From the NCBI GenBank assembly GCA_018340375.1, contig JAFFJZ010000016.1:4595372-4659371 (forward strand): a stretch of 64,000 nucleotides of DNA. The letters run 5' to 3'. Below, piece after piece: positions 11,865-54,206 of this stretch. Numbering within the stretch: the stretch's first letter is position 1; the number at the start of each line of letters is the position of its first letter. The stretch comes from Gonatopus flavifemur. Taxonomy: Eukaryota > Arthropoda > Insecta > Hymenoptera > Dryinidae. The translations under genes were made by a program, and so were the position numbers. Under the pieces are notes generated by a model. The model had not been told where the DNA came from and made no database searches. It saw only the letters and a program-made list of their open reading frames with translations.

Positions 11865-11873
11865 TCCTGTCCC

Positions 11874-12366
11874 CCTACATATTGAAGATCAGGAAATTCT
11901 CACCACTTTAGAGGGTGAAGGAAGAGGACTCCTGTCACAGATAGCACAGAGAGTCCTCTACACGTTGCGAAAACGTACTTTTGGTTCCGCATGTTTTGGT
12001 CTCTATGGAGTAGATTTTTCAAACGTTTAGAGTACTTTCCCTTTTGATATCCCTGAATACGTTTTGTGCATGTTCTTTTCATCTACTACGGGACATTCTT
12101 TTCAAGCCTTCTAAACGTACTTTCATGAAAACTAACCTTGAAAGACACAAAGTCACACAGTGAACATTGATGGAACTAAACGGGACATTTGCATGTCTCT
12201 GGGACATGTATGCGACCTTTTGTGAACGTCCTGAGACGTTATTTGCACGTTCTATGTGAAACCAAGCACGTTTTGTGAACGTTCAGAAAACCTCGCGGTG
12301 CTCTATGGGATAATTCTTCCTTTGCCCCTCAAAGTGGTGAAGATTTCCTGATCTTCCATATGTAGG
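11874..12366. mobile_element. Nested palindromic MITEs
   Basis: Outer ends CCTACATATTGAAGATCAGG and CCTGATCTTCCATATGTAGG are inverted copies. Inside, a second element has ends near CACAGATAGCAC and GTGCTCTATGGG and contains TGAACGTTCAGAAAACCTC, a word seen again near 25060. No coding capacity. Confidence 0.65.
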
Positions 12367-14091
12367 AGAAAAGAAGGTTTTGAATTTCGACTCGGGTAAT
12401 GGTCTCCATTTTTATTCGTGAAGTATCCAAATCAATTCTGGATGAAACTGGATTCAAGATCACAACTTGATGGAGGTATGACTCCGGGTCCAGGTGGATA
12501 GAAATTGCATACCTTTCCCTATAATAACGGATACCGCTTTTTGATGGGATACATTTGGATCTAGCCTCTATCCGAAAATACAAATGAAATTGCATGATGC
12601 GTAAAGGCCTGATCTTACGGGAAAGATCCAATTGATTCTGATTCAAAGTTCATACGTTTAACGGATGGAATTGGACCCAGGTCTGAGTTCGGATTTAGTG
12701 GGATTGAATTCTCATCCCTCCTCGCGGATAAAAATGGATACAGGATGATAACTTGATGGAGGTATGACTTCGGATCTGTCTATTCTTTGGATGGACAACA
12801 ATGGATCCGCAACGCTTTTGGATTGGAAACGAATGCAAGTGGATTGCAGGTGTTTGATAATTTCTCACTTTTGTATTGAAACTGTTAAGAATACTCTTTG
12901 AATGGATGAATTTGGATACTTGTGGACAATTCATCGCACTTCATAACAACATCAGATTGATTTGTACAGAAATGTTCAAATATGGATCAGATTCCTATCC
13001 AAACCCATCCATTTCAATCATCGTTTTTCAACAGGGATTGATTCTGATTCGAAGTTCACACGTTCTACGGATGAAATTGGATCAAGCTCTGAATTCAGAT
13101 TTGCTTGGATTGAATTTTCATCCATCTGAACGGATGAAAATGGATTCAGGATCATAACTTGATGAAGGCATGACTTTGAATTCAGGTGGATAAGAATCTC
13201 ATACGTTTGCAGATAGTAACGGACACCGCTCCTTGGTAAGATAAATTTGGATCCAGTCTCTATCCGAAAATACGGATGAAATTGGATTGCACGCATGGGT
13301 ATGATCTCATGAAAGAGTGATAATTGATTCTGATTCAAAGTTCACACGTTCCACGGATGGCATCGGAATAATCTCTGAATTCGGATTTGCTTGGATTGAA
13401 TTTCCATCCATCTGAACGGATGAAAATGGATTCAGGATCATAACTTGATGAAGGTATGACTTTGGATTCAGGTGGATAGGAATCTCATATGTTTTCCAGA
13501 TAGTAAAGGACACCGCTCTTTGATAGGATCGATTCGGATCCAGTCTCTATCCGAAAATACGGATGAAATTGGATTACCCGCACAGGTGTGATCTTATGGA
13601 AAAGTGATCATTCATTGAGATTCAAATTTCATACGTTCCACGGATGAAATCGGATCAAGCTCTGGATTCGGATTCATCCGGATTGAATTCTCGTCCATCC
13701 TAACGGATGAAAATGGGTCCGTAACCCGATTCATAATTTCAAGTCCGAATGAGATTTGTTTGGATAGGAACTCTATCCGTTGCTCGGATGCAAACGAACC
13801 AATGTTGTAGCTCAGATCATTCTGGATGATTTTTTTATCCTCTGAATGGACAGAAATGCATCCGCAACGCTTTTGGATTGGAAAGGGATGCAAGTGGATT
13901 GCAGATCTTCAATAATATCTCAATTTCGGATTGGAACGGATTGGAATCTCCTTTGAATAGATGGAATTGGATACGTATGGACAACTTATTCCACTTCTGG
14001 ACAAAATCAGATTGATTTGGACAGGAAATTTTCAAATACGGATCGAAATCTTATCCAAATCCATCCATTCCAATCGTTTTTTTCAGCAGGG
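12367..14091. repeat. Tandem array of about 290-bp units
   Basis: The marker GATTCTGATTCAAAGTTCA recurs near 12645, 13038, 13327 and (diverged) 13617, giving a 289-290 bp period. Units share CGGATGAAATTGGAT, CATAACTTGATGAAGG and CTCTATCCGAAAATACGGAT. One interval is longer and contains an internal insertion or end sequence (CAACAGGG at 13036). The repeated word GGATGNAATTGGAT is itself near-palindromic. Confidence 0.75.
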
Positions 14092-26009: not shown

Positions 26010-26271
26010 CACTGAGAGAAAAAATTTCCGGGAACAATGAAATATTTAATTGAATATTCGTCATAAAATATTTAATTGATTTGAATAAACTTTCATTGAC
26101 TCAATGAAATAATTGTTTCCATTGATGAAATATTCCATAGCATATTAAATATTTGTTTGATTGAATAAATATTTAATCGAGTCGATGAAAATTTATTCAA
26201 ATCAATTAAGTATTTTATGGCGACTATTCAACTGAATATTTTATTGTTCCCTGCAATTTTTTCTCTCAGTG
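26010..26271. mobile_element. Palindromic MITE, CACTGAGAG ends, TA duplication
   Basis: CACTGAGAGAAAAAATT opens it and AATTTTTTCTCTCAGTG closes it. TA flanks both sides (26008-26009, 26272-26273). Arms repeat AATATTTAATTGA words and pair over most of their length. Confidence 0.82.
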
Positions 26272-30524: not shown

Positions 30525-32450
30525 TTACGTTGAATCAAGATTTCGCATCGTATTACACACCATCTCATAGAATACATTTTTAATATTCAAATTATTTTTA
30601 ATCCAATATAAATTGAAAATTTTCTCTGCAGCCGTAACTACTGAATAAGTATCAATTCTAGGATCTCTTGAAGATCCTGAACTTTTTCTTTTAATAAATT
30701 CCGATGTAACTGCCTCACATTCATTCGAAAGTTTGTAACATGTCTCACATTTCAGAGACTTCAAAATTCTTCTTTCAACGCAACCTGCTATGAACTTCGC
30801 AGCATGATCCAATTGTGCGTGTATTATTTTCAATGGTATATCGTCAATATCAATAATATTAAATTCTTCTTCTTTTCCTTTACAAATGTCTATAGAAGCA
30901 GCTAATTTTTTCTTTGAAGAAACAGTTAAAATATCAGTATGATCGAGAGGCATACAATTACCCCCGGCAGAAGATTTCACATAATTGTGGTGTAATAATC
31001 GTTTATACGATGCCGAAAATTGGGAACAATTTGGATTATTATTAAATCCTCCCATGCTTCGGAAACAAGAAAATAATATTTCCAAATGATCTTGGGACAA
31101 CTTATATGGCAATGTATACTGTGAATATCCAGTTTCTACATAATCATGAAACATATTTTCTAAACTTCGTATGTCTATTATAAAACCAAGAAATCCAATT
31201 TTCGATTTCGTTTGTAATATTGGTCCAAGCTTTGTCTTGGTTTGGATTTTGATAGATGATAGATACTCGGTAGATTTTTTGAAGAACTCAAATGTTGCCA
31301 CAGCAGTATCGCATTTCAAAAGCTTTTCATACCCAGTCGAAAATAAATTTCTAGAGTTGAGGCAGTCGAAGATATTATTTATGGTTTTACAAAATTGTAT
31401 TGTCACGCCACATTGTAAAAAATCGGGATGTTGGTCATCTAATAATTGCTCTAGAACTAGAACACAACTATTGCTGAGAGTCTGAGCTGCCAACTTGGCA
31501 TTCATCTTATTTTTAAACCATTGTACATGTTTTTGATTTAACTTATTGGCCAAATGAAAACAACCCTCGTTTTGCATGTCAATTAGTTTCTGTATAAATT
31601 TCCATTTTATAGGTTGATTACTAGCATCATACAGTACTCCTTTAGAGGCCGAAATGTTCCTGATTAATTTGAGCATATGGGTGGAATCAAAAAATATGAA
31701 AATTGTGTGGCCTTGTACTGGATGAATAGAAGAAGCTTGATGATTACGTACATCTGCACCCAAATATGAACACATGGAAATATTGGCTGGTAGATCGTCA
31801 AAAGTAAATGCAATTACTTGGACTCCGGACTTGCTGACGAAATCTAAAACTTTTCTACTGATTTCGGCTAATTCTTCCAAGTTTAGTCCAGCAACCAAAA
31901 AGTATGCAATTCGAATTTTCCATCGATCATTGATGCCTGTTAGCAAATATACAAGGGCTGATTTTGCCATAGGTAAATTTTCGGGATCTTCTATTACAGC
32001 TCCATAGTCGATATATACGATGAATTTCTTCAAAGAATAATTCGAGACAACTTGTTTTCTCACAGCCATTTCATCTACTGTCAAGCAAGCGAACAATTTT
32101 TCATTCTCCACAATTTCTTGTCTTTTTTTCAAAATATCAAGGGCCTCTTGCGTGAATCCAGGTGACCCATTTGTATTATTATACCAAGCGCGAATAGTAG
32201 AAGAAGCAGGTAACTGGTTTGCAAATGTTTTTTGTACATAATTGTACACCTTCGTACTATGAAAATGCAAAGTTAATGCAAATGCACGTAACTCTGGGGT
32301 ATATTTTCCACGGATTTTCCCTGCTTGAATTTGGTTAATTATATCATTACCTTCCGATATAGCCTGTGTAGAAAGTAACCAATTGGAAAAAATTGTATAA
32401 ACAGAATTTTTCCTGATAGAAGTAGCTTTAGGCATTCTGTATGATCTCAC
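30525..32450 (-). CDS. P-element/THAP9-type transposase without THAP domain
   Basis: An uninterrupted 641-codon frame. It carries the signature blocks of P-type transposases in order: YTPELRAFALTLHF (50-63), LPASSTIRAWY (80-90), TVDEMAVRKQ (124-133), VIAFTFDDLPANIS (212-225), FFDSTHMLKLIRN (253-265), NNIFDCLNSRN (358-368), GFLGFIIDIRSL (419-430) and QDHLEILFSCFRSMGG (453-468). D126, D218 and E457 fall where the catalytic acidic residues of the P/THAP9 RNase-H fold are expected. The N-terminal THAP DNA-binding finger and most of the coiled coil are absent. The likely first in-frame Met is at 32450; a splice acceptor (catacag at about 32436) could instead join it to an upstream exon. Upstream DNA is occupied by a GCATGGG element starting 35 bp away, so a THAP exon may have been displaced; none was found up to 36 kb. 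It is either a domesticated or recently active copy. Confidence 0.85.
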   Translation of the reverse strand: MRSYRMPKATSIRKNSVYTIFSNWLLSTQAISEGNDIINQIQAGKIRGKYTPELRAFALTLHFHSTKVYNYVQKTFANQLPASSTIRAWYNNTNGSPGFTQEALDILKKRQEIVENEKLFACLTVDEMAVRKQVVSNYSLKKFIVYIDYGAVIEDPENLPMAKSALVYLLTGINDRWKIRIAYFLVAGLNLEELAEISRKVLDFVSKSGVQVIAFTFDDLPANISMCSYLGADVRNHQASSIHPVQGHTIFIFFDSTHMLKLIRNISASKGVLYDASNQPIKWKFIQKLIDMQNEGCFHLANKLNQKHVQWFKNKMNAKLAAQTLSNSCVLVLEQLLDDQHPDFLQCGVTIQFCKTINNIFDCLNSRNLFSTGYEKLLKCDTAVATFEFFKKSTEYLSSIKIQTKTKLGPILQTKSKIGFLGFIIDIRSLENMFHDYVETGYSQYTLPYKLSQDHLEILFSCFRSMGGFNNNPNCSQFSASYKRLLHHNYVKSSAGGNCMPLDHTDILTVSSKKKLAASIDICKGKEEEFNIIDIDDIPLKIIHAQLDHAAKFIAGCVERRILKSLKCETCYKLSNECEAVTSEFIKRKSSGSSRDPRIDTYSVVTAAEKIFNLYWIKNNLNIKNVFYEMVCNTMRNLDST

Positions 32451-33118
32451 GAGGCCGTGCGAGGCATTGGTACGACTTTAGCAACCCTACTGTAAATTCC
32501 CAGTCAGTTCGCATGCGAAATTTCCCATGCGAATTTGGGACTGGGTTTATTACGCATGCGATCATATTCCATGGGAAAGTTTCACATGGGTGGCCCATGT
32601 GAAAATGTTGCATGGATTTCCCATGCGAAGGTGTCGCATGGGTTTCCCATGCGAAAATGTCGCATGGGTGTCACATGCGAAAATGTCGCATGGGTGTCAC
32701 ATGAGAAAATGTCGCATGGGGAGACCCATGCGAATTTAAGACTGGGTTTGTTTCGCATGTGATGATGTCCCATGGGGATTTTTCGCATGTGCGTCACATG
32801 TGAAAATGTCGCATGGGAGGATACCCATGCGAATTTGAGACTGGGTATCACATGCGACATTTTCCCGTGAGTCACACATGCGGCAGTGTCCCATGGGTCA
32901 CGCATGGGGAACTGTCGCATGCGTCACTCATGGGAAAATGTGGCATCAACCAAAAAACTTCATAAATGTGCAATAATAGTCGAAAAAATATCTGATATTT
33001 GATATTCAGAGGTTTAGAGGGGTCTTAGAGGCGAAAAAACAACGCTCATCTTCTCATTTTTTTTTTTACATATGAGGAAGACAAGTTATTACTTGCATTT
33101 TTGAGTACATATAAAATA

Positions 33119-33320
33119 CACTGAGAAAAAATGTAGTGGAGCCAATTGCATATGAGTTTGGATACGGCAAATCCCGCCATGCGGTTGACGCAACCGAATA
33201 TCGATTGAAATGACCGAATAAGCATTTGATCCCATCGATATTCGGTTCAGTCAACCGCATGGCGGGATTCGCCGTATCCAAACTCATATGCAGTTGGCTC
33301 CACTACATTTTTTTCCAGTG
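33119..33320. mobile_element. Nested palindromic MITE, CACTGAG ends, TA duplication
   Basis: CACTGAGAAAAAATGTAGTG to CACTACATTTTTTTCCAGTG, flanked by TA on each side. Arms pair nearly perfectly (GTTTGGATACGGC, GCCATGCGGTTGAC) around 33220. Confidence 0.85.
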
Positions 33321-33490
33321 TAACCTTTGAACTATATTTTGTCAAATTTGAATGTTAAAATTCTGGTAATTGAGCCAGTTATAAACATTTCTCCGACGCA
33401 TCTCGGAAAAAAACGGTTGTCAAGATTTCTGAAGAACTACACGACCGATTCTCATGAAATTTCACACAGGTCTTCGAGATTCAATTCACA

Positions 33491-33643
33491 AGAACTTGGA
33501 CGAAGGATGTCTCCTCCTTTCAATTACAATTATTTTTTTTTCTTCAAAATGTAGTGTAAATTTCACCGAAATTTTTATTTTTTTGTGAAAACGTCTGCCA
33601 AAAATCCAATCTTCACTTGTTTTTTTTCCTTCGTCCAAGTTCT
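33491..33643. mobile_element. Inverted pair AGAACTTGGACGAAGGA
   Basis: AGAACTTGGACGAAGGA and its exact inverse lie about 150 bp apart within the core of the GCATGGG element. They may bound a small MITE; duplication not resolved. Confidence 0.45.
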
Positions 33644-34328
33644 ATTTTATGGTCTCAACTAAAACACGGATTTTGGTTTTTTTCATTTTGGATGATTCTG
33701 TTATGAGTTCTGCTGTCAACGCGGATGCACCTTTTTCCGAGGGGTCGTCGGAAATGACGTCGCAATCGCGGAGTTTTGTTCATCTACTACGAAAATTTCA
33801 GAAATTCTTTGTCAAATATGTATCTTTGAGACAGTAAAAAGTTTGAATGAGATATTTCATTTTTTATATGGAGAAAAATTGTTAAAAATAGGCCGAGGAA
33901 ATTTCACCGAGGAAAAAACTCCCGTGATTCATATGGGACGACCCATGCGATCCAGTTGATGCGCATGTGATGACCCATGCGACCCACTTGCTTCCCATGC
34001 GAAGACACATGCAGCCCACCTGATTCCTACGCAAAGACCCATGCGACCCACTTGCTTCCCATGCGAAGACATATGCAACCCATTCGAAGACCCATGCGAC
34101 CCACTTGATTCCTGTGCGAAAACCCATGCGACCCACTTGATTCCCATGCGAAGACCCATGTGACCCACTTGATCCCCATACGAAAACCCATGCGACCCAC
34201 CGAATTCCCATGCGAAGACCCATGCGACCCACCGAATTCCCATGCGAAGACCCATGCGAACTAACTGGGAATTTACAGTAGGGAAGGCTTAATGAATGCC
34301 TACAGCCATTTCTACCAGGACTTATGAT

Positions 34329-35740: not shown

Positions 35741-36008
35741 CCCTGTCCGAAAAGTCCCATAGATTCCCATGGATTCACATAGGTACTGTGACAATAACCG
35801 CATAGAAACCGATAAGCTATTTTATTCCTATCAGAATTAATCAGGTTTTGCCGATCATGCTGATAGAAACCCATGGAACATCAGATTCCACTTAGAATCT
35901 CATAGAAACCCTTGGGTCCTGTGACAATAACCGCACAGAAACCGATAGGATATCATTGATTCCATTAGGATTTCGCCTATCGGTTTCTATTGGTTTTTTC
36001 GCACAGGG
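35741..36008. mobile_element. TIR element, CCCTGTCCGAAAA, TT duplication
   Basis: CCCTGTCCGAAAAGTCC on the left and GGTTTTTTCGCACAGGG on the right are inverted. TT flanks both sides. The inside repeats CATAGAAACC and ACAATAACCGCA, so a 268-bp miniature of the satellite-bodied elements. Confidence 0.72.
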
Positions 36009-36629
36009 TTTAATAAGTAATATCCTCCTCAAGAATATAACAAATTATATCCGCCTTTTTTATATGATTATTAAATGCAGATTGAGTAGAAAATTATCTA
36101 TTACATGTAAGTCTACATCTGATATATACGTTACAAGCAGTATTTTGTGTTTACTGGAAGTTGACTTTTTGCTGGAAAGTATATACCAGGTGTGTAAGTG
36201 TGGAACCGGAATTTGCCCATAGGTGGCGCTAGATGTCGATGCAGTTACCGACACATCACGTCAGCGGTGTCTTGTTATTGTATTGATATCCGACGAAGAT
36301 TTCCAACTCACAATAACACGAGTTTCATTCAGTAGCATTAGTTTATTAAAGATAAACATGTCGAGTTTTGTGCCAACAAATTACGGTTTACGGATAGCAC
36401 TACTTTTCTGTTTTCATCTGAAGAAAACCACAGCCAAATCGCATCGAATGCTTGTGGAAGCGTTTGGTGAGCATGCTCTCGGAAAAACACAGTGTTTCGA
36501 GTGGTTCAAACGGTTCAAAAATGGCGATTTCGACGTCAGGAACGAAGAACGTGGACGACCACCGGAAAAGTGTGAAGACGTGGACCTGCAAGCCTTGTTG
36601 GACGAAGACGACGCTCAAACACAACAACA

Positions 36630-36960
36630 CCCTGGTTGAAAAATCCGATTGAATCCGATAAAAAAAAATTTTATCGGAATGAATTGAGGTTCTGCATCGG
36701 AAATTTCCTATTGATACCAATGAGATCATTTTTAATTGGATTTAATCGGTCTTTCCCCCGGTTGAAAAATCCGATTGAATCCGATGAAAAAACATTTCAT
36801 CGGAATGGATTGAGTTTCTGCATCGGAAATTTCCGATTGATACAAATAAAATAATTTTTAACTGGATTTAATCGGCATTTTCCCTGGTGAAAAAATCCGA
36901 TAAAAAAAACTTATCGGAATGAATTGATTCCTGCATCGCGATTTTCTTATTGAATTTTAT
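36630..36960. repeat. Three tandem copies of the element's left terminus
   Basis: Units begin near 36631, 36757 and 36884 (period 126-127 bp). Each opens with CTGGTTGAAAAATCCGATTG or a variant, then TATCGGAATGAATTG, TGCATCGG and GGATTTAATCGG. Only the first has the true end CCC plus the duplication. Confidence 0.75.
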
Positions 36961-37369
36961 TGGTTGTCAACCTAACCAACGAACGGTTTATATACATTAT
37001 ATACGCGCATTATATATCAATTAAACAAACACATATATCATTTATTCAATCATTGCGTATGACAAATTATTGCTGAAATAAATTCAAACGATCATTTATG
37101 TGTTATTAATATGGTGATCACCCATCCACCTTGTACCGCAGTTGTCGTTGCTTAACCCAGAAGATCGATCTGGAACACCCGCTCGCTCGATGCCGTGGTT
37201 CGCTTCCTATCAATGTGAACTAAATGACTGTCTTATGTCAGGGATGGGTGTCCTATAGTAATGAGATTCAATTGGTAATAGTCCATTGGACATATGAGGG
37301 ATTGTATCGGTCTTAATGAGAGCATGGGAGTTCATTAATAATAAAAATCCCAATGAAGACCAAGAAAAT

Positions 37370-38469
37370 ATTTTCCAATTGGATTCAATCGGTATTTTAT
37401 GATGGATGAAAAGTTCCGATTGATATCAATACAATATTTTTCATTTGAATTCAATCGGTATTTTATCAATTATGAAAATTCTAATTGATACGAGTCAAAT
37501 ATTTTCCAATAGGATCCAATAGGTATTTTATCAATAATAAGAATTCCGATTGATATCAATAAAATATTGTGTAATTGGATTCACTTGGTATTTTATGATC
37601 CATGAAAATTCCGATTGACGCCAATACAATATTTTTCAATTGGATTGAATCGGTATGTTATTAATTATGAAGATTCTAATTGATATCAGTCAAATATTTT
37701 TCAATGGCATCCAATAGGTATTTCATCAATAATAAGAATTCCTATTGATACCAAGAAAATATTTTTCATTTGATTAAATTGAGATTTCATTGATTATTGA
37801 AATTTTAATTGATATCAGTGAAATATTTTTCAATGGAATTCAATGGGTATTTCATTAATCACAAAAATTCCAAATGATACCGAGAGAATATTTTCTAATC
37901 GGATTCAATCGTTATTTTATGGTTGATGAGAAATTCCGATTAATACCAATGAAATATTTTTTAATTGGATTGAATCGGTATTTCATTAATCATGAAAATT
38001 TTAATTGATACCAGTCAAATATTTTTCAATGGGATCCAATTGATATTTTATCAATAGTAAGAATTCCGGTTGATACCAATACAATATTTTTCAATTTGAT
38101 TCATTCGGAGTTTTATCAATCATGAAAATTCTAATTGATACCAGTAAAACGTTTTTCAATGGGATCCAATTGGTATTTCATCAATAATCAAAATTCCAAT
38201 TGATGAAAAAAAAATGTTTCTTATTTGATTGAATAGGTATTTTATTGATCATTAAAATTGTAATTGATATCAGTCAAATATTGTCCAATGGCATCCAATA
38301 GGTATTTTATCAATAATCAAAATTCCAATTCGTACGGACACAATATTTTTTAATTTGATTCAATCGGCATTTTATTAATCATTACAATTATAATTGCTAC
38401 CAGTAACATATTTCTCAATGGGATTCAATGGATATTCCATCACTGATAAGAATTCCGATTGATACCAAT
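37370..38469. repeat. Satellite-like array, about 65-bp monomers
   Basis: Successive monomers alternate between ATTTTTCAATTGGATTCAAT.GG and ATGAAAATTCTAATTGATAC types, giving a roughly 130-bp double unit. Around 16 monomers. The array stops at the hAT insertion. Confidence 0.7.
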
Positions 38470-39670
38470 CAGGGTTGGCATCTGTGGGTCCAACCCAATT
38501 GGACCCAGTGGGTTTTTTCGGGTGGGTACGGATTGAAAAAACCCTCAAAAACCCAGTCAAAAACCCACATGGTGCTCAATTGAATGGTTATTTAATACAA
38601 TGTATTTTTCCATGTTGTTCTTCTTTCTAAATTTGCATCAGTAGAATTTCATTGATTCTACAGTTATAAGTATCCCACTGGATAGAATTGGATGAATTTT
38701 ACTACGTTATGAATTAATACTCACTATTCAGTGAGTGAAAGCTTACCTAAAGCTCGAAATGATGATTGATCGAAATGAGTCATATTTCATTGGGAAACTC
38801 AACACCGAAAAAAATAATTTATTTGATCGAATGAACTGAAGTTAGTTGTGAAAATGAGTTCCGAGTAATAAAAGAATAGAAGCCGGTCATAAAAGCTGTA
38901 GTTAAGGCAACTTCAGATTAGTAACAGCAACTAAAGTCAGAGAAATTAAATTTGAATTCAGTTGAGCCAACGCCCGTTTTAGTTATCCAAATGTCAACAA
39001 CTGTATCTAGTTGCTGGAACTAATTTGGAGTAAGGGTAACTAATAATTTTTTTCGGTGAGTGGATACTCACCAATGCAGTGCATTGGAGTGAAATACTAA
39101 TAATCGCGATCCAGTGGAATTCCACTGATCTAAATACGGGAAGTTATTTAATTGAGATTTGTTCAAATGTTGCTCGAATACCGTTGAAAGACTTGTTCAT
39201 TGAAGTGTGATTTTTTTTATGAAAACGAATCCGTGAAAATTGCCCAGAACTTTTCATGCATATGTGGTACGACTAGCCATTGTTTTGGATCGTCGTTTTG
39301 TATTCTCGAAACCTTCCAAAGCATTGCCTAGCCAGATTATAAACGCTTGAGGAATGTTGAAAAATTTCAAAAAACACGTTTCCTCTAAAACCACACCTCC
39401 ACTTATTAGTCAATAGAATGTGATAACTTCCTTCAAGTATAGAAAAATATGGGAGATAAACATTAATAATTGAAAATGAATTCAATGGAAAATAATTTGT
39501 ACAATGTAGATTTTGATTATGACGAGACAGCATTTAATATGATTCAATAAAATAGCATAAAATCATAATTTGAATATGAATGTTCATATTTCGGTACAAA
39601 TACAATGGTACATATTCATTCTTAATATCTACATAATGGATGAGTTTGATAACTCTGTTTATTTTTCATA

Positions 39671-39912
39671 CACTGAGGGAAGAAATTCATTGGGACAAAA
39701 AAATATTACATCCAATGGTATCTATAAAATATTTCTTGAGATCAATGAAATTTTACTCCAATGGATGAAATGGTTTTTCAGTTGATGAAATACTTCATGC
39801 GGTCAAAAACCATTTCATTCATTCGAATAATATTCAATTGGTTCAAAGAAATATTTTATAGTTACCATTGGATGAAATATTTTCTTGCCTCAATGACTTT
39901 TTTCCCTCAGTG
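39671..39912. mobile_element. Palindromic MITE inside the hAT element
   Basis: CACTGAGGGAAGAAATTCAT to ATGACTTTTTTCCCTCAGTG, flanked by TA on both sides. Inner words CCAATGG, ATGAAAT and AAATATTT pair between arms. Same family as 26010-26271. Confidence 0.85.
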
Positions 39913-40200
39913 TACTTATATGGGTTTTTGTATTTTTTTATTCAAAAAATATCATAATAAAAATGAGGGTGAACTACCGAGTAAATGAACGATGGCCTAA
40001 TGGAATAAAGATTCATAAAAGAAGTAACTATTAAAAATTTCTACTACGTTAAAATAATTCGGTTTTTTTCAAAATAGTAACAACTTCTTATGAAAACAAT
40101 CAAATTACTTTAATGTAGCAGAAATTTTTAATAATTACTTCTTTTATAAATCGTTGATCTACTGGGTAGTGCACCCTATTTTAGAAAGTCTTAGTTGTAG

Positions 40201-40395
40201 TTAATCATCGTGTTGTTCATTTTGATAAAATTTATATAGTTTAACTAATTTAGTGCCCCTTTCTGGAACTAGTCTATTCCTCAGACTATTCTAAATATGC
40301 CCGAATGAGGAAAAAATTCTTTCAATCCCAGCACTGCTAGGTGGACACCTTAACAATTTGGCCAGAAACATGCAAAACCACTTGGTAGATTGTTT
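40201..40395 (-). pseudogene. hAT transposase C-terminal dimerisation relic
   Basis: The minus strand encodes CMFLAKLLRCPPSSAGIERI, then FSSFGHI, a stop codon, NSLRNRLVPERGTKL and LYKFYQNEQHDD before a natural stop at 40201. The S.A.IERIFS...G.I...LRNRL pattern is the hAT C-terminal dimerisation motif. The TAG stands where a Gln is expected. No other part of the transposase was recognised upstream, so most of the gene has decayed. Confidence 0.8.
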
Positions 40396-41252
40396 TGATG
40401 TGCAGTGTGGTCTTGCATCAAAAGTAGAATGGACACAACATACAAGGATTTGTAACGTCCAATTTGAATTGTGGCGATGCTGATCGAATTGCAGTAAAGC
40501 GCGTTAACGGTTGGAGTAAATTGCACTTGGAAATTTCACTAGTTTCAAACTTGATTTCAGCTCATGTAAACACAAATCTTGGTCCAATTTCAATCTGATC
40601 GAGGCCCAACCTTGAAAGCTCAGGCCAAAGTCGAACAAAAATTTATCCCAGATTGGTGCTCACATGAGAGATTAGATGAAAAGTAACTTTTTAGTTTATT
40701 CGGTATTTCCTGGTGACAATATAAAGTAGAATGGAATATGGTAGGGAGTCTTTTGGCAGAATCGACATGATTTGACAATCACTAGTCGCTTTCAGAGAAC
40801 ACTAGGGAATGACTAGCGGTGGTCGAATCATGTTCATTCGGCCAAAAGATCCCTTACCATGGAATATACATATGTAAATGTATTATTCTATATCATCATA
40901 TACGGAAAATGATAACATAGTACGATAAAAATGAAGATTAGTAGGTCATACTAAGAATCATCAGAGGAAACCAATGCCAATCAGCATTGCCAGTATTCCC
41001 TAGAAAAATCTTCAGCATCTAATGATTGGTCATTTCTTGTACAACTGGCCAATCATATTTTCAATTTGGGAAGAAATGACCAATGACAGAAAATCTGAAG
41101 ATTTCTCTAGGAAATACTGGCATCACTGATGCCAATTTGATAAAACCCGAAAAAACCCGGAAAAGCCCGAAAAAACCCGAAAAAACCTGATTGTACCCAG
41201 TGGGGCGGGTTTTGAAGAAAAAACCCGGGTTTTTTCCAACCCTGATACCAAT

Positions 41253-42940
41253 GGAATATTCGCTAATTGGATTCTCTTGGTATCCTACGATTATAGTTTC
41301 TTATTCCAGCAACTTTCCCATTAGTTCCAATACATCGAGGTCACCAGGGATTCCGATAAAAACCAATGATCTGATGCGATGAAAGAAATTTCAAAACTGA
41401 ATCGGTTATTGCCGGTACATACGTATAGGACTTTAGAATCTGTAAACTTGCCTATTATTTCCAATAAATTTGAATGTTGGAATAATCCAATTAAAACCCA
41501 TTGATCAATGAAATCGATACACCCTTAAATGCAGTAAAGAATCTCCCATTAGGAACCCAATCATCATTCAATTTCACAAATTTTCCCATTAGTTCCAATA
41601 GATTGAAATTGTGGAAACTTCCGATAGAAACCGTTTGCCTGATGGAATGGGGAAAATTTCAATCATCCAATCAGATATCTCTTATACAAACTAATAGATT
41701 ATGTGAAGTCTGATTAATTCCCATAGAATGCAGATTTTTTAATTGGTGAATCCCCGATTGAAACCTATAGAAAGAGATTCCGATAAACTCTTATTGATTT
41801 TGAATCGGGGATTGAACTGTTCCGATTGATCCTATGCAGTCCGATTAATTCTGAATCGGTTTCTATCGGATCTTATCGGATTTTTTAACCAGGGCTAATG
41901 CGGTGGAATAAAGTCTAAAATTGAATTGGACATTTCTCATTCAATGCTATTGAATATTCAATCCCGTAAATATTCCTTTTATTTCCCATAAATTGCACTG
42001 AAAAAAAAATGTCATCGAAAATCAATTATATTTTGTTGTTAGGGTAACTGAATATCATAGTCAAGTCAACGAATATACGGCCAGATTGACAGTATAATCA
42101 TTGACTTGACACCATGATGGTTGATTCAACTGCATGTAGTTGAGTCAACAGTGCATGTAGTTGAGGCAACAGTCAGATTCAGTTGGATATATCCAATCGT
42201 ATTCGAATCAACTATATCACCGTTGTCTGTACCCACCTTTTTTTCAGTGTGAGATGATCGAATAATCCAATTGAAACCTATTGACCAATAAAATAAACAA
42301 ACTCAAATCGAATTGGATATTCTGGATAGAAACCCAGTAAGTCTTGAATTTTGTACAATTGTCCCATTGATTCCGATAGACCGAAATCACCGAAAATTCT
42401 GATAAAAACCGATGATTCAATCCGCTGAAAGGAATTCTGAATTCGAATGGGATATTTCTCATTCAATCCTATTCAACTTTCAGATCCGTAAATGGTCCTA
42501 TAATTCCCCATGAATTCGGATAGTGGAATAATCCGATCAAAACCTACAGACCGATCAAATCTGTACGAACTCTAATCGAATTGGACATTCTCCATAAAAA
42601 CCGATTAAATTCCCCATTACGTAACATTTACGATCGGTTCCAATAGCTTTAGGTCATGGAAATTCCCGATAAAAACCATTTGTCTCATGAAATGGAGAAA
42701 TTTTCAAACTCTCAATCAGATATCTGTCACACAAACCGATTGATCACTGAAAGTCATATCAATTCCAATAAAACAAATATTTTTCTATCGATAAATCCTC
42801 GATTCAATCCTATATATACCACGTTCCAATTAATTCCTATTCATCTTGAATCGGTAGTTGAGCCTCTCCGATTGACCCTATTCATTCCGATTAATTTTGA
42901 ATCGGTTTTTATCGGTTTCTATTGGACCTTTTAATCAGGG
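41253..42940. repeat. Right half of the GATTGAATCC array
   Basis: Degenerate units of about 130-150 bp with CCCATTAGTTCCAATAGAT, GATAAAAACCGAT and TTCTCATTCAATCCTATT words, ending in the inverted terminus. More diverged than the left array. Confidence 0.6.
41996..42249. mobile_element. MITE with CACTGAAAA ends, TG duplication
   Basis: CACTGAAAAAAAAATG to CACCTTTTTTTCAGTG; TG flanks both sides. Inner repeats of GTTGA(G/T)TCAAC pair repeatedly. Confidence 0.72.
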
Positions 42941-43786
42941 CAACTGGCGTATCAGTTAAAGGTGACCCGAGAAGCCATCTCCTTTCGGTTGAAAGCCATG
43001 GGGAAGATACAAAAGGTGGGGAGATGGGTTCCACATGAACTCAACGAAAGACAGCAGGAAAACCGCAAAACATCATGCGAAATGCTGCTCGCCAGGTTCC
43101 AAAGAAAGTCATTTCTCCATCGAATTGTGACTGGCGATGAAAAGTGGATATATTTCGAGAATCCTCAGCGCAAAAAGTCATGGGTTACTCCGGGTGAACC
43201 ATCAACTTCGACGGCAAGACCAAACCACTACTGACGAAAGACAATGCTGTATGTTTGGTGGGATCAGAAGGGCGTGATCTACTACGAGCTGCTGAAACCT
43301 GGGGAAACTGTCAATACTCAACGCTACCGACAACAAATGATCGATTTGAATCGAGTTTTGCGTGAAAAAAGACCAGAATACCAAGAAAGACAACACAAGG
43401 TGATTTTGCTGCATGACAATGCACCAGCACACAAAGCAAAACAGGTCCAGGAAACGATAGAGTCGTTCCGTTGGGAGATTCTTCAGCACGCGCCTTACTC
43501 ACCGGACCTTGCCCCATCCGATTACTACTTGTTTGCATCGATGGGACACGCACTTGCTGAGCAGCGCTTTACTTTTCACGAAGATGTACGAAAATGGCTC
43601 GATGACTGGTTTGCCTCAAAAGAGCAACAGTTCTTTTGGCACGGGATCCACAAATTGCCAGAAAGATGGAAAAAATGTATAGATAGCGACGGACAATACT
43701 TTGAATAAGTTATTTTGTATCATATTATTACAATAAACGTGTTTTTTCTGTACAAAAATTCCGGTTTCATACTTACACACCTGGTA

Positions 43787-46665: not shown

Positions 46666-46699
46666 ACCTGGTTAAAAAAAACGATTGATCCCGACCAAA

Positions 46700-47590
46700 T
46701 ACTATTGATTAATCGACTAATCGGATTGAATCCAATCGGATTACTGCCATGGGCTGTCTCATTCATGAATAGGAAAAGAAGCGAGTATGACTGATGAATT
46801 GAATAGGCTCCAATGTGTATGAGAACGATAAGCTTCGATTACACTGAATCGCAATCGATTTAGGCATTTGAGAATCTTATTCAATGAGATTGTATCAGCA
46901 TTTTGACAGTTGGGTATCATGTACTGAATCCAGGTGATAACGAATGAACTTAATGAGGATGAATCCGCGTTGGCACATGGGTTTGGGTTTCATGGTCGGT
47001 GATATTAATATCATCTCAATAGAATTCGTTAGGTATCCTGCCGATTCATTGAGAAGTTCCAATGAGCGAGTGGCCGGTTAATTTAGACCAAATTGAATTG
47101 GAATCTACGAGCGGATTCACAGGACAACACAGGGCCTCTCAATCGGATCCTACAGGTTTTCTCATGATTCGAATCGTGATTAACAAACAAGATCCCACAA
47201 ACATTTTGGTGCGATTTGAATGGGTTCAATGAGGCATTCAATGATTCGATGAATGAGACTGTATCTGCATTTGAATGGTGAAATATCACATACTGAATCT
47301 GTGTGATGACGTAAGAACTCAATGAGAATCAATGTGAGTTGTTACATGGTTTTGGGTTGGATGGTCAGTGATATTCACATAGTCATCCCAATAGGATTCA
47401 ATAGGTATTTCGCTGATTCATTGGGGAGTTCCAATGAGCAAGTGGCCGGTTAATTTGGACCAAATTGAATTGGAATCCATAAGTGGATTCACAGGGCAAC
47501 GCAGGACCTCTCGAACAGATCCAATACGTTTTTTCATGATTCGGATCGGGATTGACAACCAAGATCCCACAAACGTTTTGCTGCGATTTG
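46700..47590. repeat. Left array: about 420-bp diverged direct units
   Basis: GAGCGAGTGGCCGGTTAATTT at 47062 and its near-copy at 47435 lie about 373 bp apart, each followed by GACCAAATTGAATTGGAATC, ATTCACAGG and GATCCCACAAAC. GGTTTTGGGTT..ATGGTC precedes each. At least two units. Confidence 0.65.
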
Positions 47591-47594
47591 AATG

Positions 47595-47699
47595 GTGGTA
47601 CGACGGAGAAGCAGCGTAGAGGCAACGGAGAAATGTCCGCACGAAAACACGGCCTGGAAATTCCTCCGTTACTTCTACGTTGCCTGTTCGTCGTACCAC
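47595..47699. mobile_element. Small palindromic MITE
   Basis: GTGGTACGACGGAGAAG and the inverse ending CGTCGTACCAC enclose a hairpin with GCAACGGAG / CTCCGTTAC arms. 105 bp. Confidence 0.6.
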
Positions 47700-47837
47700 G
47701 CTGTATCCACTGCTCCCTTTCTTCTCCCTTCATTCCACGGAGAAGCCACGTGATTCATCGGTGACTGTCACGTGTGGGTGATGATACTCCTTTTATATTA
47801 CTTCGCGGAGCCAATGGACGAGTAATCAAATTTTCAA

Positions 47838-48020
47838 TGTTCCGCAGCAGAGCTGCCAGGTGGGCATTGCCGTTCAGGAGAATAGTACCCCTACTATCGT
47901 TCATATACATATTCTCACCACCACTCGGAACCTTTACACACATGTAACTTACATACACGGAACGATAGTAGGGTACACTTCCGCTCTGCGGGAATACTCA
48001 TCTGGCAGCTCTGTTCCGTA
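47838..48020. mobile_element. Palindromic MITE, GCAGAGCTGCCAG ends
   Basis: TGTTCCGCAGCAGAGCTGCC on the left and GGCAGCTCTGTTCCG on the right are inverted, as are CCCTACTATCGTTC and GAACGATAGTAGGG inside. Abuts the truncated mariner. Confidence 0.65.
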
Positions 48021-48189
48021 GTAACTTCCATTGGAAACTCAGTATGTTCCTCGGACAAAATGTTCACATAGTAAATTCAACTATTTCTTTCCGTGCTAGA
48101 AAGCACAGAGGATCCACGAACATCGATTCGATTATTAATTCGATGGAATCAGAACATATTTGCATGTTGATGGTAATAAATCACTTACG

Positions 48190-48881
48190 TTTTCTCTCAA
48201 ACGCTTCAATACGCTCACGTAATATTCCTTATTCACTGTCTGACCTGGTGGGAGAAATTCGGAGTGGACCACACCACGGCAATCAAAGAAAACAGTCAAC
48301 AAAACCTTGATTTTAGATCGACTCTGTCACGGTTTTTTAGGTTTTGACTCGTCTGAAAAGCGCCATTCTGATGCTTGTTGGTTAGTTTCGATGTTATATT
48401 CATAGACCCATGTTTCGTCACCGGTAATGATACCTTCGATAACATTTTGGCCCAAAGAGAGCATTTGTTTGGCAACATCAATGCCATGCTGTTTCTGCAA
48501 CGAATTCAACACTCTCGGCACAAGCTGTGCTTCAACTCGTCTCATGGCCAAAATATTGTGCATAACGTTCTGCACCGATCCGACCGGGACACCAAGATCG
48601 AATGCTATCTCCCTAATGCTCACACGACGATTGGCGAGGACGATTTCTTTAATTTTATCAATATTTTCGTCAGTGATACTGGTGAGTGGACGACCAGAAC
48701 GAGGCAAATCATCAAACACAATACGACCTGCTTTAAACTCTTTGTACCACTCGTACGCTTGTGTTTTCGACATCATCGAGTCCCCGTAGGTTTCTGTCAA
48801 CATCTTCAACGCTTCCGCACATGAAATTTTGTTAAAAACACAAAATTTTAGACAAACTCTTTGCTCAACCAAATTTGACAT
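48190..48881 (-). pseudogene. Mariner transposase fragment, 3' truncated
   Basis: The start is set at the Met of MSNLVEQRVCLKFCVFNK (48881), typical of mariner N termini; the frame extends upstream without similarity. The helix-turn-helix region (YEWYKEFKAGR, DLPRSGRP) and the first catalytic Asp (ITGDETWVYEY) are present. A TGA at 48327-48329 replaces an Arg codon after KPKKP; beyond it the same frame continues with KVLLTVFFDCRGVVHSEFLP and VNKEYY until about 48190, where similarity ends. The second and third catalytic Asp and the right terminus are missing. It differs from the mariners at 36186 and 55256, being a separate lineage. Confidence 0.88.
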
Positions 48882-48905
48882 TGCGAAATTCGCAGACCAC
48901 AACAA

Positions 48906-50090
48906 ACACTGACTCGTTTACAAGGCAACACGCACTAACTTCTGACGAATGAGGCGTGAACAGACATTTGAGCGCTGTGATGTGAAGAATCATCACAAAG
49001 AGAGTCGCGGGATGGCACCGCGCACGATCCCTATCGATCGTAATCGTAAACATTCATAACGAGTTAGTTCACTCGTAAGAACACAGCTGTCGCTCGCTCA
49101 CACGAGAATCGGGAACACATCTCCTCTCCCTCGCTATTCCTGTCCCCCTCTAATCCCTGTCCTTCTTCTATTTGTTGAGGCGCACACTCACCCATTGAGT
49201 AGTAAGGAGCCACCACCACCCGAGCGCGCAAGTCGAGCTCGAGTGCGCTCCAACGGAAAGTCACCAACGGGGTTTCGTATATGATTTTGTGAACTCACCC
49301 GTCGGTGAAGAAGAAGGAAGTGGCCATGTTGCCTGTCACTTCTTGTGTGGCTGAGCGACCGCAAAGTTCACGTCGAAAACGGATCCTCGAAAATTATTAT
49401 TACGGTGAATGTGCTGTGCCATCGGGGCTCAGGTTTCGACCGCGAATTGGAATACTGCATCTGCCAGGTTTCCCCGCCGTTGTGGAAGTGCTAGTGCGGT
49501 GAAGATTGGTTTCTGTGGTGTAAAATTGGGTTCTTCACGTGGCCACCTCCACGTGTCCTCGTCCCGTGTTTTCTTTCCTCTTACCCGTTGCTTTCGACTT
49601 AGAGTCACCCCCTTCGCCCGTGTTTGCCCTCCCTCGATTGATTTTATGGTCGCGATCTCCCGGTATTTCCCTTTTACTTTTGATTCATGTGAATGGCATA
49701 GTCCGTGTAGTATATTCCCTCGTGGTCGCGCCCTCCTTGTCTCTTTCTTTTCCCCGTGTTACCCTGACTCTTTTATAAATTTACATGGTTATTGTTCTTT
49801 TACCTTCACGCCGAAGTCGTGTGAGTTTTGTACAAATTGAGAGAGTTAAAATATACTGGTGCTGCGAGCACGTGTTTAACCTCGAAATCGAGTATAATTC
49901 CTTTACAATCACTAGAATCGACCCACCCCCTCTCCCTGAGTTTTTCCTTTCCCTTTAAGACCACAAGACTATCGTGAACAATTTACTTGTTTTATTTCAA
50001 TATATTTCAGATCTCGGCTCCTTATAAATATCCACGACAGGAGTCGTGAAGGCGCTCAATAACCCAAGCGCCTCTGTGGATGGATTCAAG
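48906..50090. other. CpG-richer stretch, possible promoter/leader or LTR remnant
   Basis: Base composition shifts clearly: pyrimidine-rich runs (CTCCTCTCCCTCGC), many CG dinucleotides and few A/T runs from 49050 to 49800. Open frames of 65-143 codons occur but show no domain, no signal peptide and no splice logic. ACTGGTGCTGCGAGCACG near 49855 could be the inner edge of an LTR with its primer site. A host promoter with 5' leader is the other reading. Confidence 0.3.
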
Positions 50091-50463
50091 GAATATCCAT
50101 CACAGCGCTAAATAACAGATGAAATAACATGGAAAACAAAAGATTCCGACAATATCTCAAGCGCAGTTTGTTTGAATAGAGAATTCCGAGTACTTTTCGA
50201 TCAGAAGGTATATAATACTTTTTAGGGTGTTCAGTGTGGTTTAGATTTCGTATATTGATATGACTCATTGAATAAGATACAATCCAATCGGCTATACCAT
50301 GATCAGATCCGATTGAGTAGTAGAACCTCTCTTTAATAGAATTTCATTCGTCTACAGATTTTCTGAGTCGACTAAACCTCCATTGAATCCGATTGAGTCA
50401 ATTGGGCGATTCCTGTTTACAACTTACTTGCAATAGTATACCTTGTATATCAGCATCTCAGTA

Positions 50464-50962
50464 CCCTGGTGAAAATGGAAGCAGAAAGGAAAAGTAAATG
50501 AAGCATATGCTGGAAAGTAACAGAAAAGTTAATGAAAAGTATACGGAGCCTCAACGAAAGGTGTAAGAAGAGTATGTGAAGCGGGAATTGAAACAAACAA
50601 AGCGTATACAATCGAAAGAAAAAAAATTGAACTTCTTTGTGGGAATCGAACCAGGGACTCCCACCTTAGTGTAAGAGGGTCTTATCAACTAATCTATAGA
50701 TCACCGTTGGCATTGCCTGCCTCAAAACATTATTTGAACTTAGAATAGATATAATTCGCACACGCTTGATGTAACCTACAGTTACGCCACATGAAGCGTG
50801 TTTAAAACGGGATCAAAAGCTTATGGAGCGTATATGGAACGTATGATTCCATCACTTTACAGCAAACGAGCATCACACGCTCCAGGAAGAGGGAATTGAA
50901 ACCTTTTTCGCTTCGTATGCGCTTCCGTCGCGTTTTGTGTATACACTTCATTTTCACCAGGG
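50464..50962. mobile_element. TIR element, CCCTGGTGAAAATG, TA duplication
   Basis: CCCTGGTGAAAATGGAAGC and ACTTCATTTTCACCAGGG are inverted ends, flanked by TA on both sides. It interrupts a 228-bp array unit. Inside are GAAGCGTAT..GGAG words repeated in both orientations and a tRNA-like segment. Confidence 0.85.
50631..50712 (-). other. tRNA-like segment (pseudo-tRNA or SINE-like head)
   Basis: The minus strand has TAGATTAGTTGATAAGAC, close to a tRNA A box, and GGTTCGATTCC, a good B box, about 45 bp apart, with GTGGG..CCCAC able to pair around the latter. The acceptor stem does not close, so this is not a functional tRNA gene. Confidence 0.35.
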
Positions 50963-52081
50963 TATGATTCCCATCCTCTATTGTGATATGAACCAGTGAA
51001 CTATGGAATACTATAGAATCCAATTGGTGATGTCTCTATCGAATCTGATTGAGTGGTACAGTCTATCTTTGATGAAATTTTATTCGCAAACAGATGTTGT
51101 GAATCGGCTGATTGCCCATTGGATTCGATTGGGTCAGTTGTGCGATTTCTTTTTACAACTCATTTTGAATAGTGTAATTTGCAAAACCATGTTTCGGCGT
51201 GATATCATTGCGTATCGTCATATGACTCATTGATTACGATAGAATCCAATCCATCGTACCCGTAGCGAATCCGGTTGAGTACTAGAGTCTGTCTCTGAAG
51301 AAATTTGATTCACAAACGAATGTTTTGGATCGGTTAAACCCCCATTGGATCCACTTGGGTCAGTCGTGCGATTCCCCTTCATAGCTCACTGTGAATTTTG
51401 CATAACCATTTGCATAATCAGTGTTTTGGTATGCTTCCCATTCCACATCTTAATATAACTTGATGAGTACGATAGAGTCCAGTCGGTCATATCCCTATTG
51501 GATCCAATTGAGTAGTAGACCCGATCTCTGGGAAAATTTCATTCGCCTACAAATGTTTAGAATCAGCTCGGCCCCCATTACACCCCGTTGGGTCAATCCT
51601 GAGATTGCTGTTCGCGGAACACTCAGAATAGTGTACCTCGTATATCAGCGTCTCAGTGTGATTTGCATTTCATACCGTGATACGGCTCAAAGAATACGAT
51701 AGAATGTCATCGGTCATACCACTATCGAATCCGAGTGAGTAGTAGATCCTACACTGATGAAGGTCCACTCGGTTCCAGATGTTTCAAATTGACTGAACGC
51801 TCATTGAATCCGACTGGGTAAATGAGGCGATTCCTGTGTACAACTCACTTGCAATAGTGCACCTTGTATATCAGCGACTGAGCGTGATTTCCATCCCGTA
51901 TCGTAATGTACTAATAGAACTATAGTAGAACGCTATTGGTCATGTTCTTATCAAATCCGATTGAGTAGTAGCGCCTATTTCTGATAGAATTCCAGTCGCC
52001 TACAGATTTTTTGAATCGGTCACATCCCTATTGAATCCGATGCGGTCAATTTGTGCGGATATAGCATTCAATCGTTCATTA

Positions 52082-52358
52082 AACTGAGAAAACAAATATC
52101 CTGAAAATTACCATAATTTATGGATTTTCAGCGCTGGTCTGACCCGAGTCGGAATATTTACTTGCACGAATATCTAAAAGTACTATAATTTCTTGGACTT
52201 TCCAGAATGAGTACGGTACCTTCCTTATGAAAGTCCCAGATATTATGGTACTTTTAGAGGTTTGTTCAGGTAAATATTGAGACTCGGGTCAGACCAGCGC
52301 TAAAAATCCATAAATTGTGGTACTTTTTAAGATACCTTTTTCTCCGTGTATCATATCG
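52082..52358. mobile_element. Palindromic MITE of the CACTGAG family, TA duplication
   Basis: AACTGAGAAAACAAATATCC to GATACCTTTTTCTCCGTG with TA on both sides. Long paired arms share CTGGTCTGACCCGAGTC and its inverse. Confidence 0.75.
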
Positions 52359-52614
52359 AAACCAATTGAGAAACAGAGCCCATTCCTGATGGAATCTCAC
52401 TCGCTCAGAGAGATTCAGGATTAGCAAAACTCTCATTGACTCCGACTGGGTGAATACTCTCAACCTCAGTTGAATCTACCGTGAAAAAATGGAAAATTGC
52501 ATATCAGTATTACAGTGAGTTTTTGAGTCTCAATCGTATCTTGAATCACTGAATACTGTAGAATCGAATCAGCTATTCTCCTGATGAATCTGATTCCGAA
52601 TGTACAGCAGCCCT

Positions 52615-53490
52615 CCCTGGTGAAAGGGAAGCGTGTAATAGAAAGTGTCAGGAACGTAGTTGGAAAGTATTTGGAACGTGGATTCAAGCGTATACCGAGC
52701 GTCAAGTGGAACCACGGTGTAAGAAGAATAGGTGATCCAACTGGCCTCATTTTTTGGTGGTGGGGATGTGACAATTTCTTAGAATTTGTTGACAGTTCAC
52801 TAGATGGCATATGTGCAGCTTGACGAATTTTAACAACAAAAATGGCGTTTTGTTTCCAACACATAACCTGTTATCAGAGTTGGAAATTAACACTTATTTA
52901 TTCATCCATTTGTATTTCTCAAACCCTTAATTCTAACGATGAGTGAGTTATTAATCCTGCATATAACAAGATGCGGGACAGAAATTTTGATGTATTTTCG
53001 ATTTTTTTTCAATTGGGTAATTTGTTGTAAATATGCAAAGTTTGAGAGTAGCTGTCATAATCACTGGATTGCTTCCTCCATCATGTAAAGATAGAGCATT
53101 AAATTGAGGAGTAATCGCGCAGCTGCCATATACTGTTTTGAGGTTATTTGTGTTCCTTGGAGGCTGCCATTATTGTTTACATTATTTGTAATGTCAACAG
53201 CGCTGCTAGTGGTCAAATTCGTAAATACTAAAAAACGATCACAAACGTCACGCCCCCGTTGGATCACCTATTCCTCTTACACCGTGAGTGGAACATTAAG
53301 AGTGGTTCGAACGTATATTTGAAATGTGTGAAGCGTATCCGAAGGAACCCCAATTTCATAGAAACCGGGCTTTACGCACGGAAGCGTAATCCAAGAGTAG
53401 ATAGGAAGCATATAAGAAGTATTAGGGAAGTAATCTGAAACATGCTTACGCTTCCGTTACTCTTTATGACACGCTTCCCTTGCACCAGGG
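52615..53490. mobile_element. TIR element, CCCTGGTGAAAGG, CT duplication
   Basis: CCCTGGTGAAAGGGAAGCGTG and its inverse (ACACGCTTCCC..GCACCAGGG) bound it; CT flanks both sides. A 574-bp hAT MITE is nested inside. GAAGCGTA and TACGCTTCC words recur in both arms. Confidence 0.8.
52713..53286. mobile_element. Nested hAT-type MITE, 8-bp duplication
   Basis: CACGGTGTAAGAAGAATAGG and the inverse CCTATTCCTCTTACACCGTG end it. AGTGGAAC is duplicated exactly (52705-52712, 53287-53294). 574 bp, no transposase frame. Confidence 0.88.
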
Positions 53491-54206
53491 CTTTGACAAT
53501 ATTTTCAACTGGAAAAACTTTCAACGAATCAAATTCGTTCACAACGTTCAAATTCCCTATTCATTGCCATTCCTCAACTCTGTACATTTACCGATTGATT
53601 CTCAAGTATTTATATTGGTTGATTCGTTGGCATGCTCAATAAATCCAATTGTATTCAATCGGGATATCGACTGCACAATGTTCTGATTCAATCTCATTCA
53701 TTTCTCATTGCCACCATTCCCCGTTCATATTGTTCTTCCTCCTATTCAATCTCATTGTCTATTGCGTTTCAACATTACTGGGCAAATGCCGATTCATCCC
53801 CATTCGTCCATCCGTTGATTTCCATATTAATTCCCAATCAATATAATCTCCGATTTTTCTATTTCCAATCGACCATTTGATTCTAAAACAGTGAAACAAT
53901 CATTGAATCCTATCAAATATCATGCGAAAATCGAAATGTTTAAATGACTATTAAATCCAGAAACTTGAATATGTTCAAACCGCATTCGATCTGATTACGT
54001 TTTTTCCCCCATTCCCGTGTGAAGAAGTGTCCCTTGTTCCACCTGTATGTCCCTGATTCAGTACCATTCATCAAAGCATGTCTATTGGTTCTGATTAAAT
54101 CTGACCAATTTTGATTGAGACTCAATCGTCAAATATTGATGCTCCAAAGTAGGTACTATTCATTCAATCAGATTTGGTCAGAATCAATCGTTCATTTGAA
54201 CCAGGG
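53491..54206. repeat. Right-hand degenerate GATTGAATCC array
   Basis: TCAATC..ATTCC words recur in the orientation opposite to the left array, ending in AACCAGGG. No gene. Confidence 0.5.

Follow-up and report, generated by a model that had tools for sequence, protein, structure and literature searches.

A gene-less, probably CACTA-type transposon of Gonatopus flavifemur with an array of repeats derived from its own terminus

Animal DNA transposons related to CACTA, the "TRC" elements described from Schistosoma, Tribolium, and Aedes, open with CCC, create 2-bp target duplications, and carry a Transposase_21 domain; one of them, SmTRC1, contains a tandem-repeat region (DeMarco et al. 2006, PMC1636069). 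In plant CACTA elements, TNPA-type proteins bind family-specific subterminal repeats (PMC2613891), and such elements can hold an internal satellite array in addition to these repeats (PMC8978399). A further precedent is Tetris, whose internal tandem repeats share 37 bp with its terminal domain and gave rise to satellites, and whose authors propose that they supply extra binding sites (PMC4079207). The subject of the present analysis is an element at positions 36630-42940 of a 64-kb stretch of the G. flavifemur genome (the window, that is, the whole stretch analyzed: C68:4595372-4659371 of a 636-Mb assembly in 402 contigs), which consists of repeat-rich eukaryotic DNA with a GC content of 36%. 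The element, beginning with CCCTGGTTG and ending with AATCAGGG, is probably a non-autonomous transposon of the animal CACTA type (TRC/EnSpm-like), measuring ~1.2 to 3.9 kb in the copies examined, and its left part carries an array of units homologous to its own terminus.

The element interrupts the transposase frame of a Mos1-type mariner. The left flank (36358-36627) aligns with Mos1 residues 1-89 (E = 7.5e-34), codon 90 occupies 36625-36627, and the left copy of the target-site duplication CA follows at 36628-36629; the right copy lies at 42941-42942, where the frame restarts at Mos1 residue 91 (E = 2.5e-38). The inserted DNA thus amounts to 6311 bp plus the 2-bp duplication. Without the element and one CA, the mariner parts join at residues 90/91 with no residue lost or gained, which identifies CA as a 2-bp target duplication and upholds the claim, made in a preliminary description of this DNA, that the stretch had moved as a unit. 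The same description reported no gene in it, and no open frame of at least 120 aa was found in 36640-43234.

The 6.3 kb cannot, however, be taken as the body of one element, as had been assumed, since nearly half of this stretch consists of other insertions. The larger is a hAT-like non-autonomous insertion of 2775 bp (38470-41244), opening with CAGGGTTGG, closing with CCAACCCTG, and flanked by the 8-bp duplication ATACCAAT at 38462-38469 and 41245-41252. This duplication sits within the array, so the hAT-like insertion came later; it did not appear within the first 5 kb in 20 other copies of the element, and one 108-base match to it in copy L009 falls outside the element. Its 8-bp duplication and its CAGGG-type ends, which we take to be a mark of hAT elements, fit this placement; a transposase is absent from it, hence the designation hAT-like only. 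It contains a CACTG miniature inverted-repeat transposable element (MITE) at 39671-39912 (duplication TA), and another MITE, of the form CACTG...CAGTG with duplication TG, occupies 41996-42249. Without the hAT-like insert, the window copy is 3528 bp long.

The left end (36630-36953, plus strand) comprises ~2.6 tandem copies of a 126-bp terminal unit (Tandem Repeats Finder [TRF], period 126), starting at 36630, 36756, and 36882 and each beginning with CCC(T/C)GG; its outer position is common to the 17 of 20 other copies in which both ends were recognized. A spacer without array follows (36954-37336), in which no profile matches occur between the terminal units and the array. The 65-bp tandem array itself (37337-38469, plus strand; TRF score 905 over 37337-38467, and profile) has 17 units and makes up about one-third of the 3528-bp copy. 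On the right, two 585-bp end modules lie on the minus strand: R1 (41310-41894), ending in ...TTTTTTAACCAGGG, is the outermost end of a short form of the element, and R2 (42356-42940) is that of a long form and of the window copy. R1 and R2 are 70% identical and are separated by a 461-bp segment, MID (41895-42355), which is 96 to 99% alike among long-form copies and with which the long form carries the second MITE along.

A profile built from 312 array units was compared with the terminal 126-bp unit (search space, 0.001 Mb). The inner half of the terminal unit was matched directly (E = 9.7e-12 and 7.6e-11), and its outer half, the inverted repeat proper, was matched in reverse (E = 6.1e-8 and 1.9e-7). 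Counts of CCGATTGAATCC with up to two mismatches, set against expectation and against 200 shuffles, gave 14 in the array (0.32 expected; no shuffle reached 14), 4 in the left end (0.17), 3 in R1 (0.17; reached in 2 of 200 shuffles), and 4 in R2 (0.18), and none in the hAT-like insert or in either mariner part. A motif variant, CCGATAGAAACC, is enriched in R1 (4 vs. 0.04) and R2 (5 vs. 0.07), in each case with 0 of 200 shuffles reaching the count; GATTGAATCC itself is not enriched in R1 (4 vs. 2.04; 39 of 200 shuffles). Direct and inverted subterminal repeats, a feature of the CACTA superfamily, are present. The earlier picture of left and right tandem arrays of the element's own terminal motif is therefore correct for the left side from 37337 onward, and it fails for 36954-37336, which is spacer, and for the right side, where the two modules form no 65-bp array and match the unit profile weakly (best E = 0.006).

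Further copies, the search for which had been proposed along with that picture, are abundant. The exact 20-base terminus CCCTGGTTNAAAAATCCGAT occurs 660 times in the genome (328 + 332; reversed-pattern control, 0), with positions listed for 100 of the 660. A 601-base query returned 1790 first-look candidates; the 40 that were scored, including the window, all had a long match at 94 to 100%, and the 20 best other copies were fetched, so the sample is biased toward copies resembling the left end of the window element. A right end with 19 to 20 of 20 terminal inverted repeat (TIR) matches was recognized in 17 of them; L011, L013, and L028 give way to other sequence. At the accepted end, a duplication of 2 bp, with no match beyond it, is present in 16 of these 17 copies (CA, TT, TA, TC, TT, TA, TA, AA, AG, AT, AT, TA, TA, TA, AA, and AT), composed solely of A and T in 13 cases. 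Since L012 and L016 share both flanks and represent one insertion, 15 of 16 independent copies carry the 2-bp duplication. Copies range from 1233 to 3907 bp, and the left 700 bp of 18 copies differ by 2.7% on average (0.1 to 4.1%). A scan of the fetched loci (269,724 bases) for other CCCTG...CAGGG pairs found six, with duplications of exactly 2 bp in three, 4 bp in one, and none in two.

Both R1 and R2 are used as working right ends. Eleven of the 17 copies are of the short form, ending at R1, and 10 of these have a 2-bp duplication there; five are of the long form and have both modules with the MITE-bearing segment between them; L023, which has suffered an internal loss, has R2 as its end. 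In all six R2-ended copies, the 2-bp duplication is at R2, and no 2-bp match was reported at the inner R1 of the five long-form copies, except in L025. Among copies, R1 and R2 are each 94 to 97% alike, compared with 69 to 71% between R1 and R2, indicating that the second end long predates the expansion of the long form; the MITE of L026 is 88% alike. R2 was probably acquired from a related element and not produced by recent duplication.

The CCCTGG left end, the TIR matches at the accepted right ends, and the 2-bp duplications agree with the signature of animal CACTA elements. SmTRC1 shares with this family a CCC-opening TIR, a 2-bp duplication (in 7 of 14 copies there), a repeat motif inside the TIR, and a tandem-repeat region (PMC1636069), and the suggestion that the element is of no known kind is not supported. 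In the same account, the described animal TRC elements differ in encoding a Transposase_21 protein, whereas the window element is gene-less and its array is terminus-derived. Plant CACTA/En-Spm elements are alike in that copies of a family-specific motif, both direct and inverted, are set close together near their ends, in the variation of this motif by family, and in having large gene-less members; they differ in their CACTA ends and 3-bp duplication (PMC2613891, PMC8978399), and their subterminal regions span several hundred bases, in contrast to the regular array here, with up to 27 units of 65 bp.

In this genome, Transposase_21 (PF02992) matches were found at 90 places with E ≤ 1e-3 (80 over the cut-off), as opposed to 0 of 14 control genomes. 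L032, L033, and L034 are copies of one Transposase_21 element, ~99.7% alike over 5.2 kb, in which a 788-aa frame of L032 matches the domain (E = 1.9e-9). This element ends in ...TTTTTACCAGGG, and its copies diverge exactly past ...CGTTCGATTTTTACCAGGG; the same CCCTGGT terminus also lies, by coordinates, ~3.2 kb from a fourth Transposase_21 place (C218:47753618). As judged from sequence, CCCTGGT ends are thereby linked to Transposase_21 in this genome; this family is not linked to an enzyme of its own.

The element inserts as a unit between its CCCTGG...CCAGGG ends with a 2-bp target duplication. The left array of diverged terminal-unit copies is inherited with the element and changes in length by loss or gain of blocks of units. 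Taken as a non-autonomous animal CACTA element, the element would depend for its movement on a transposase supplied in trans from another locus, putatively of the Transposase_21 kind. The long form may have arisen by the addition of a related element's right end beyond R1, followed by mobilization of the composite. If CACTA elements are a guide, the simplest view of the terminus-derived repeats is that they are extra putative binding sites; they would be enlarged subterminal repeats, recognized by a transposon-encoded DNA-binding protein.

Several observations weigh against this interpretation. Among the termini listed (100 of 660), no transposase with the exact terminus of this family was found, and none of nine Transposase_21 places on the contigs covered by these termini lies within 100 kb of a listed one. 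The left end and target duplication of the Transposase_21 element in L033 and L034 were not found in the fetched stretch; these copies remain alike for >15 kb from the right end, so that part of the likeness may reflect segmental duplication, and left-end candidates at positions 3288 and 10243 of this joined stretch of 19.8 kb were discarded, as the likeness of the copies continues past them. The 10-kb pieces around L030 and L031, two further Transposase_21 places, yielded no CCC-paired ends. L022, one of the 17 copies, has no duplication, and in L025 the inner end R1 shows a match of 3 bp, taken as chance. Finally, the motif columns of the array units are no better conserved than the others (0.84 and 0.83 vs. 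0.81 in L022; 0.84 and 0.83 vs. 0.83 to 0.84 in L009). This comparison, the sole test made, does not support selection on binding sites in the array; the earlier proposal of extended subterminal binding sites is plausible by CACTA analogy.

Candidates for an autonomous copy or for a driving transposase were rejected. In L029, termini lie 9.8 kb apart, and the enclosed frames look by eye like mariner and reverse transcriptase, which marks it as a copy with nested insertions and not as autonomous. A P-element-type transposase frame in the window (30525-32477, minus strand; 650 aa stop to stop, with four Pfam TNP/P-element domains over cut-off) is joined to the element by no inverted ends; P elements make an 8-bp duplication, which the 2-bp duplication of the element does not fit. 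The frames at 980-3408, considered as a candidate CACTA transposase, did not match Transposase_21 in any of the four that were scanned.

The strongest rival assigns the array no part in transposition and views it as the passive product of a terminal duplication, expanding and contracting through recombination or slippage. This is quite possible, if somewhat short of an even chance, and is nearly as likely as a binding-site role. It is favored by the unexceptional conservation of the motif columns, by the spread of 5 to 27 units per copy across 18 copies (the 17 plus the window copy), and by L023, which keeps its 2-bp duplication with only 5 units. A comparison of array lengths among copies, as the preliminary description had advised, showed how units are gained and lost. 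The nearest relative lies in another copy for 300 of 312 units; the mean best unit identity between copies is 0.98, a figure inflated by the near-identical L012 and L016, against a mean pair identity of 0.75 within a copy. Window units 0-12 correspond in order to units 0-12 of L009, and window units 13-16 to its units 20-23; L012 units 0-2 and 3-8 match L009 units 0-2 and 18-23. L009 is colinear with L018 and L022 except for some shifted units, which suggests that duplications may occur as well. The mostly colinear order with block losses indicates that the array is inherited with the element and edited inside it, and is not rebuilt or homogenized at each site. Against a passive array stand the requirement of known CACTA elements for subterminal repeats in cis (PMC2613891) and the finding that four elements of the window are each packed with their own terminal motif. 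In the bodies of these four, their own terminal 8-mers reach 197, 167, 125, and 70 occurrences against 43.6, 3.8, 36.1, and 29.9 expected. Clear sharing of 8-mers across elements is confined to the first and last (77 vs. 22.5; 96 vs. 39.7), with borderline cells, relative to the top shuffle, of 48/48 (F in G), 49/48 (G in F), and 36/42 (A in G).

Assignment to another superfamily, possibly one not yet described, in which CCC ends and 2-bp duplications occur without a Transposase_21 enzyme, is unlikely. The absence of genes from these elements and of any transposase linked to the exact terminus among those listed would fit it. On the other side, the pairing of CCC ends and 2-bp duplications has been reported as characteristic of animal CACTA elements (PMC1636069), and this very genome contains a Transposase_21 element ending in CCCTGGT. 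Exact matches were absent for a left-end 30-mer in viral_contigs and for a 22-mer in genome_contigs, collections from which records of the window's own genome may be omitted. No published description of this family was found in the literature searched, which is no proof of its being unpublished.

A very improbable alternative, which takes up the earlier idea that such elements seed satellites sharing the 65-bp monomer, is that the array was released and amplified into long satellites as reported for Tetris (PMC4079207). It draws on that precedent and on the terminus-derived units of variable number; it conflicts with the lack of homogenization within copies and with the genomic distribution of the unit. 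An exact 22-mer of one unit variant occurs 618 times in this one assembly (311 + 307; control, 0), and the first 100 of the 618 places fall into 67 loci, of which 37 hold a single match, 27 two, 3 three, and none more. Of the 51 among these on contigs that the listed termini also cover, 41 have an exact terminus within 5 kb and the other 10 have none at that distance. For this variant and in the part listed, no satellite array was found, and nothing observed suggests that the element makes satellite DNA. A collapse or misjoin of repeats in the assembly, suggested by the repetitive nature of the region and named in the preliminary description as a possible refutation, has practically no standing, as the layout recurs at other places with their own duplications and the mariner frame closes exactly.

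The claim that no family with such a layout is known is not supported in view of Tetris, a foldback element of Drosophila virilis that is likewise gene-less and has end-like internal tandem repeats in variable number. Tetris differs in its 8- to 10-bp duplications, its arrays in both long inverted repeats, repeats that are 87 to 94% alike, and satellite expansion (PMC4079207), whereas the window family has a 2-bp duplication, an array on the left only (R1 and R2 being without one), and units ~75% alike within a copy. Galileo, of the P superfamily, resembles it in extra transposase-binding repeats inside the inverted repeats and belongs to another superfamily (as cited in PMC4079207). Two other candidates were set aside: ATon (PMC3422177), which is AT-specific and short, with no array mentioned in the accessible text, and pvCACTA1 (PMC4938662), which is gene-less and abundant, with no subterminal array appearing in the accessible text. 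The present layout is a variant of known ones, distinguished by its regularity, its two working right ends, and the number of such families in one window. Galileo's target duplication is presumably longer than that of the window family.

The three other elements of this kind lie at 9472-13036 or 9472-14091 (element G), 32485-34283, and 46666-54206. The first has a 287-bp array, CCCTGTTGGAAAAATC ends, and two right ends, with an exact AT duplication for 9472-13036 and none for 9472-14091; its duplicated right end (13036, 14091) resembles the R1/R2 pair. The second is gene-less, with CCCTACTGTAAATTCCCA ends (TIR match, 18 of 18), the duplication AA, and CATGCGA-type arrays, and sits just 5' of the P-element-type transposase frame. 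The third, related and 7.5 kb long, has a CCTGGTTAAAAAAAACGATTGAT end, 226-bp and 372-bp repeats, and no duplication left, and hosts two CCCTGGTGAAA MITEs at 50464-50962 (TA) and 52615-53490 (CT).

Elsewhere in the window, CACTG...CAGTG hairpin MITEs occur at 26010-26271 and 33119-33320 (both TA) in addition to the two within the main element. A 268-bp CCCTGT-ended element with duplication TT lies at 35741-36008, and its inner AAACCGATA resembles the right end of the main element. Transposase-like frames without a Pfam family extend over 980-8350 (minus strand), perhaps with upstream exons, by eye, near 7700-8350; the 100 listed homologs of the frames at 980-3408 have no Pfam domain and include relatives in ant, firefly, moth, and aphid.

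For annotation, these findings call for caution, because arrays of this sort with nested insertions may be misread as satellites or as one large element. A more speculative and rather doubtful extension is that the element multiplies its own ends: array units and end modules being copies of the terminus, a transposase closing on R1 or R2, and possibly on left units 2 and 3, would yield new lengths, composite families, and private repeats that may co-evolve with the binding protein. If true, the presence of four such elements in 64 kb would make this a principal route by which animal CACTA elements evolve in this genome. Knowledge of CACTA subterminal repeats comes mainly from plants; hundreds of animal copies, with arrays of 5 to 27 units and two usable right ends, form a natural series that bears on how many binding sites are needed per end and on the origin of new ends and new repeat motifs.

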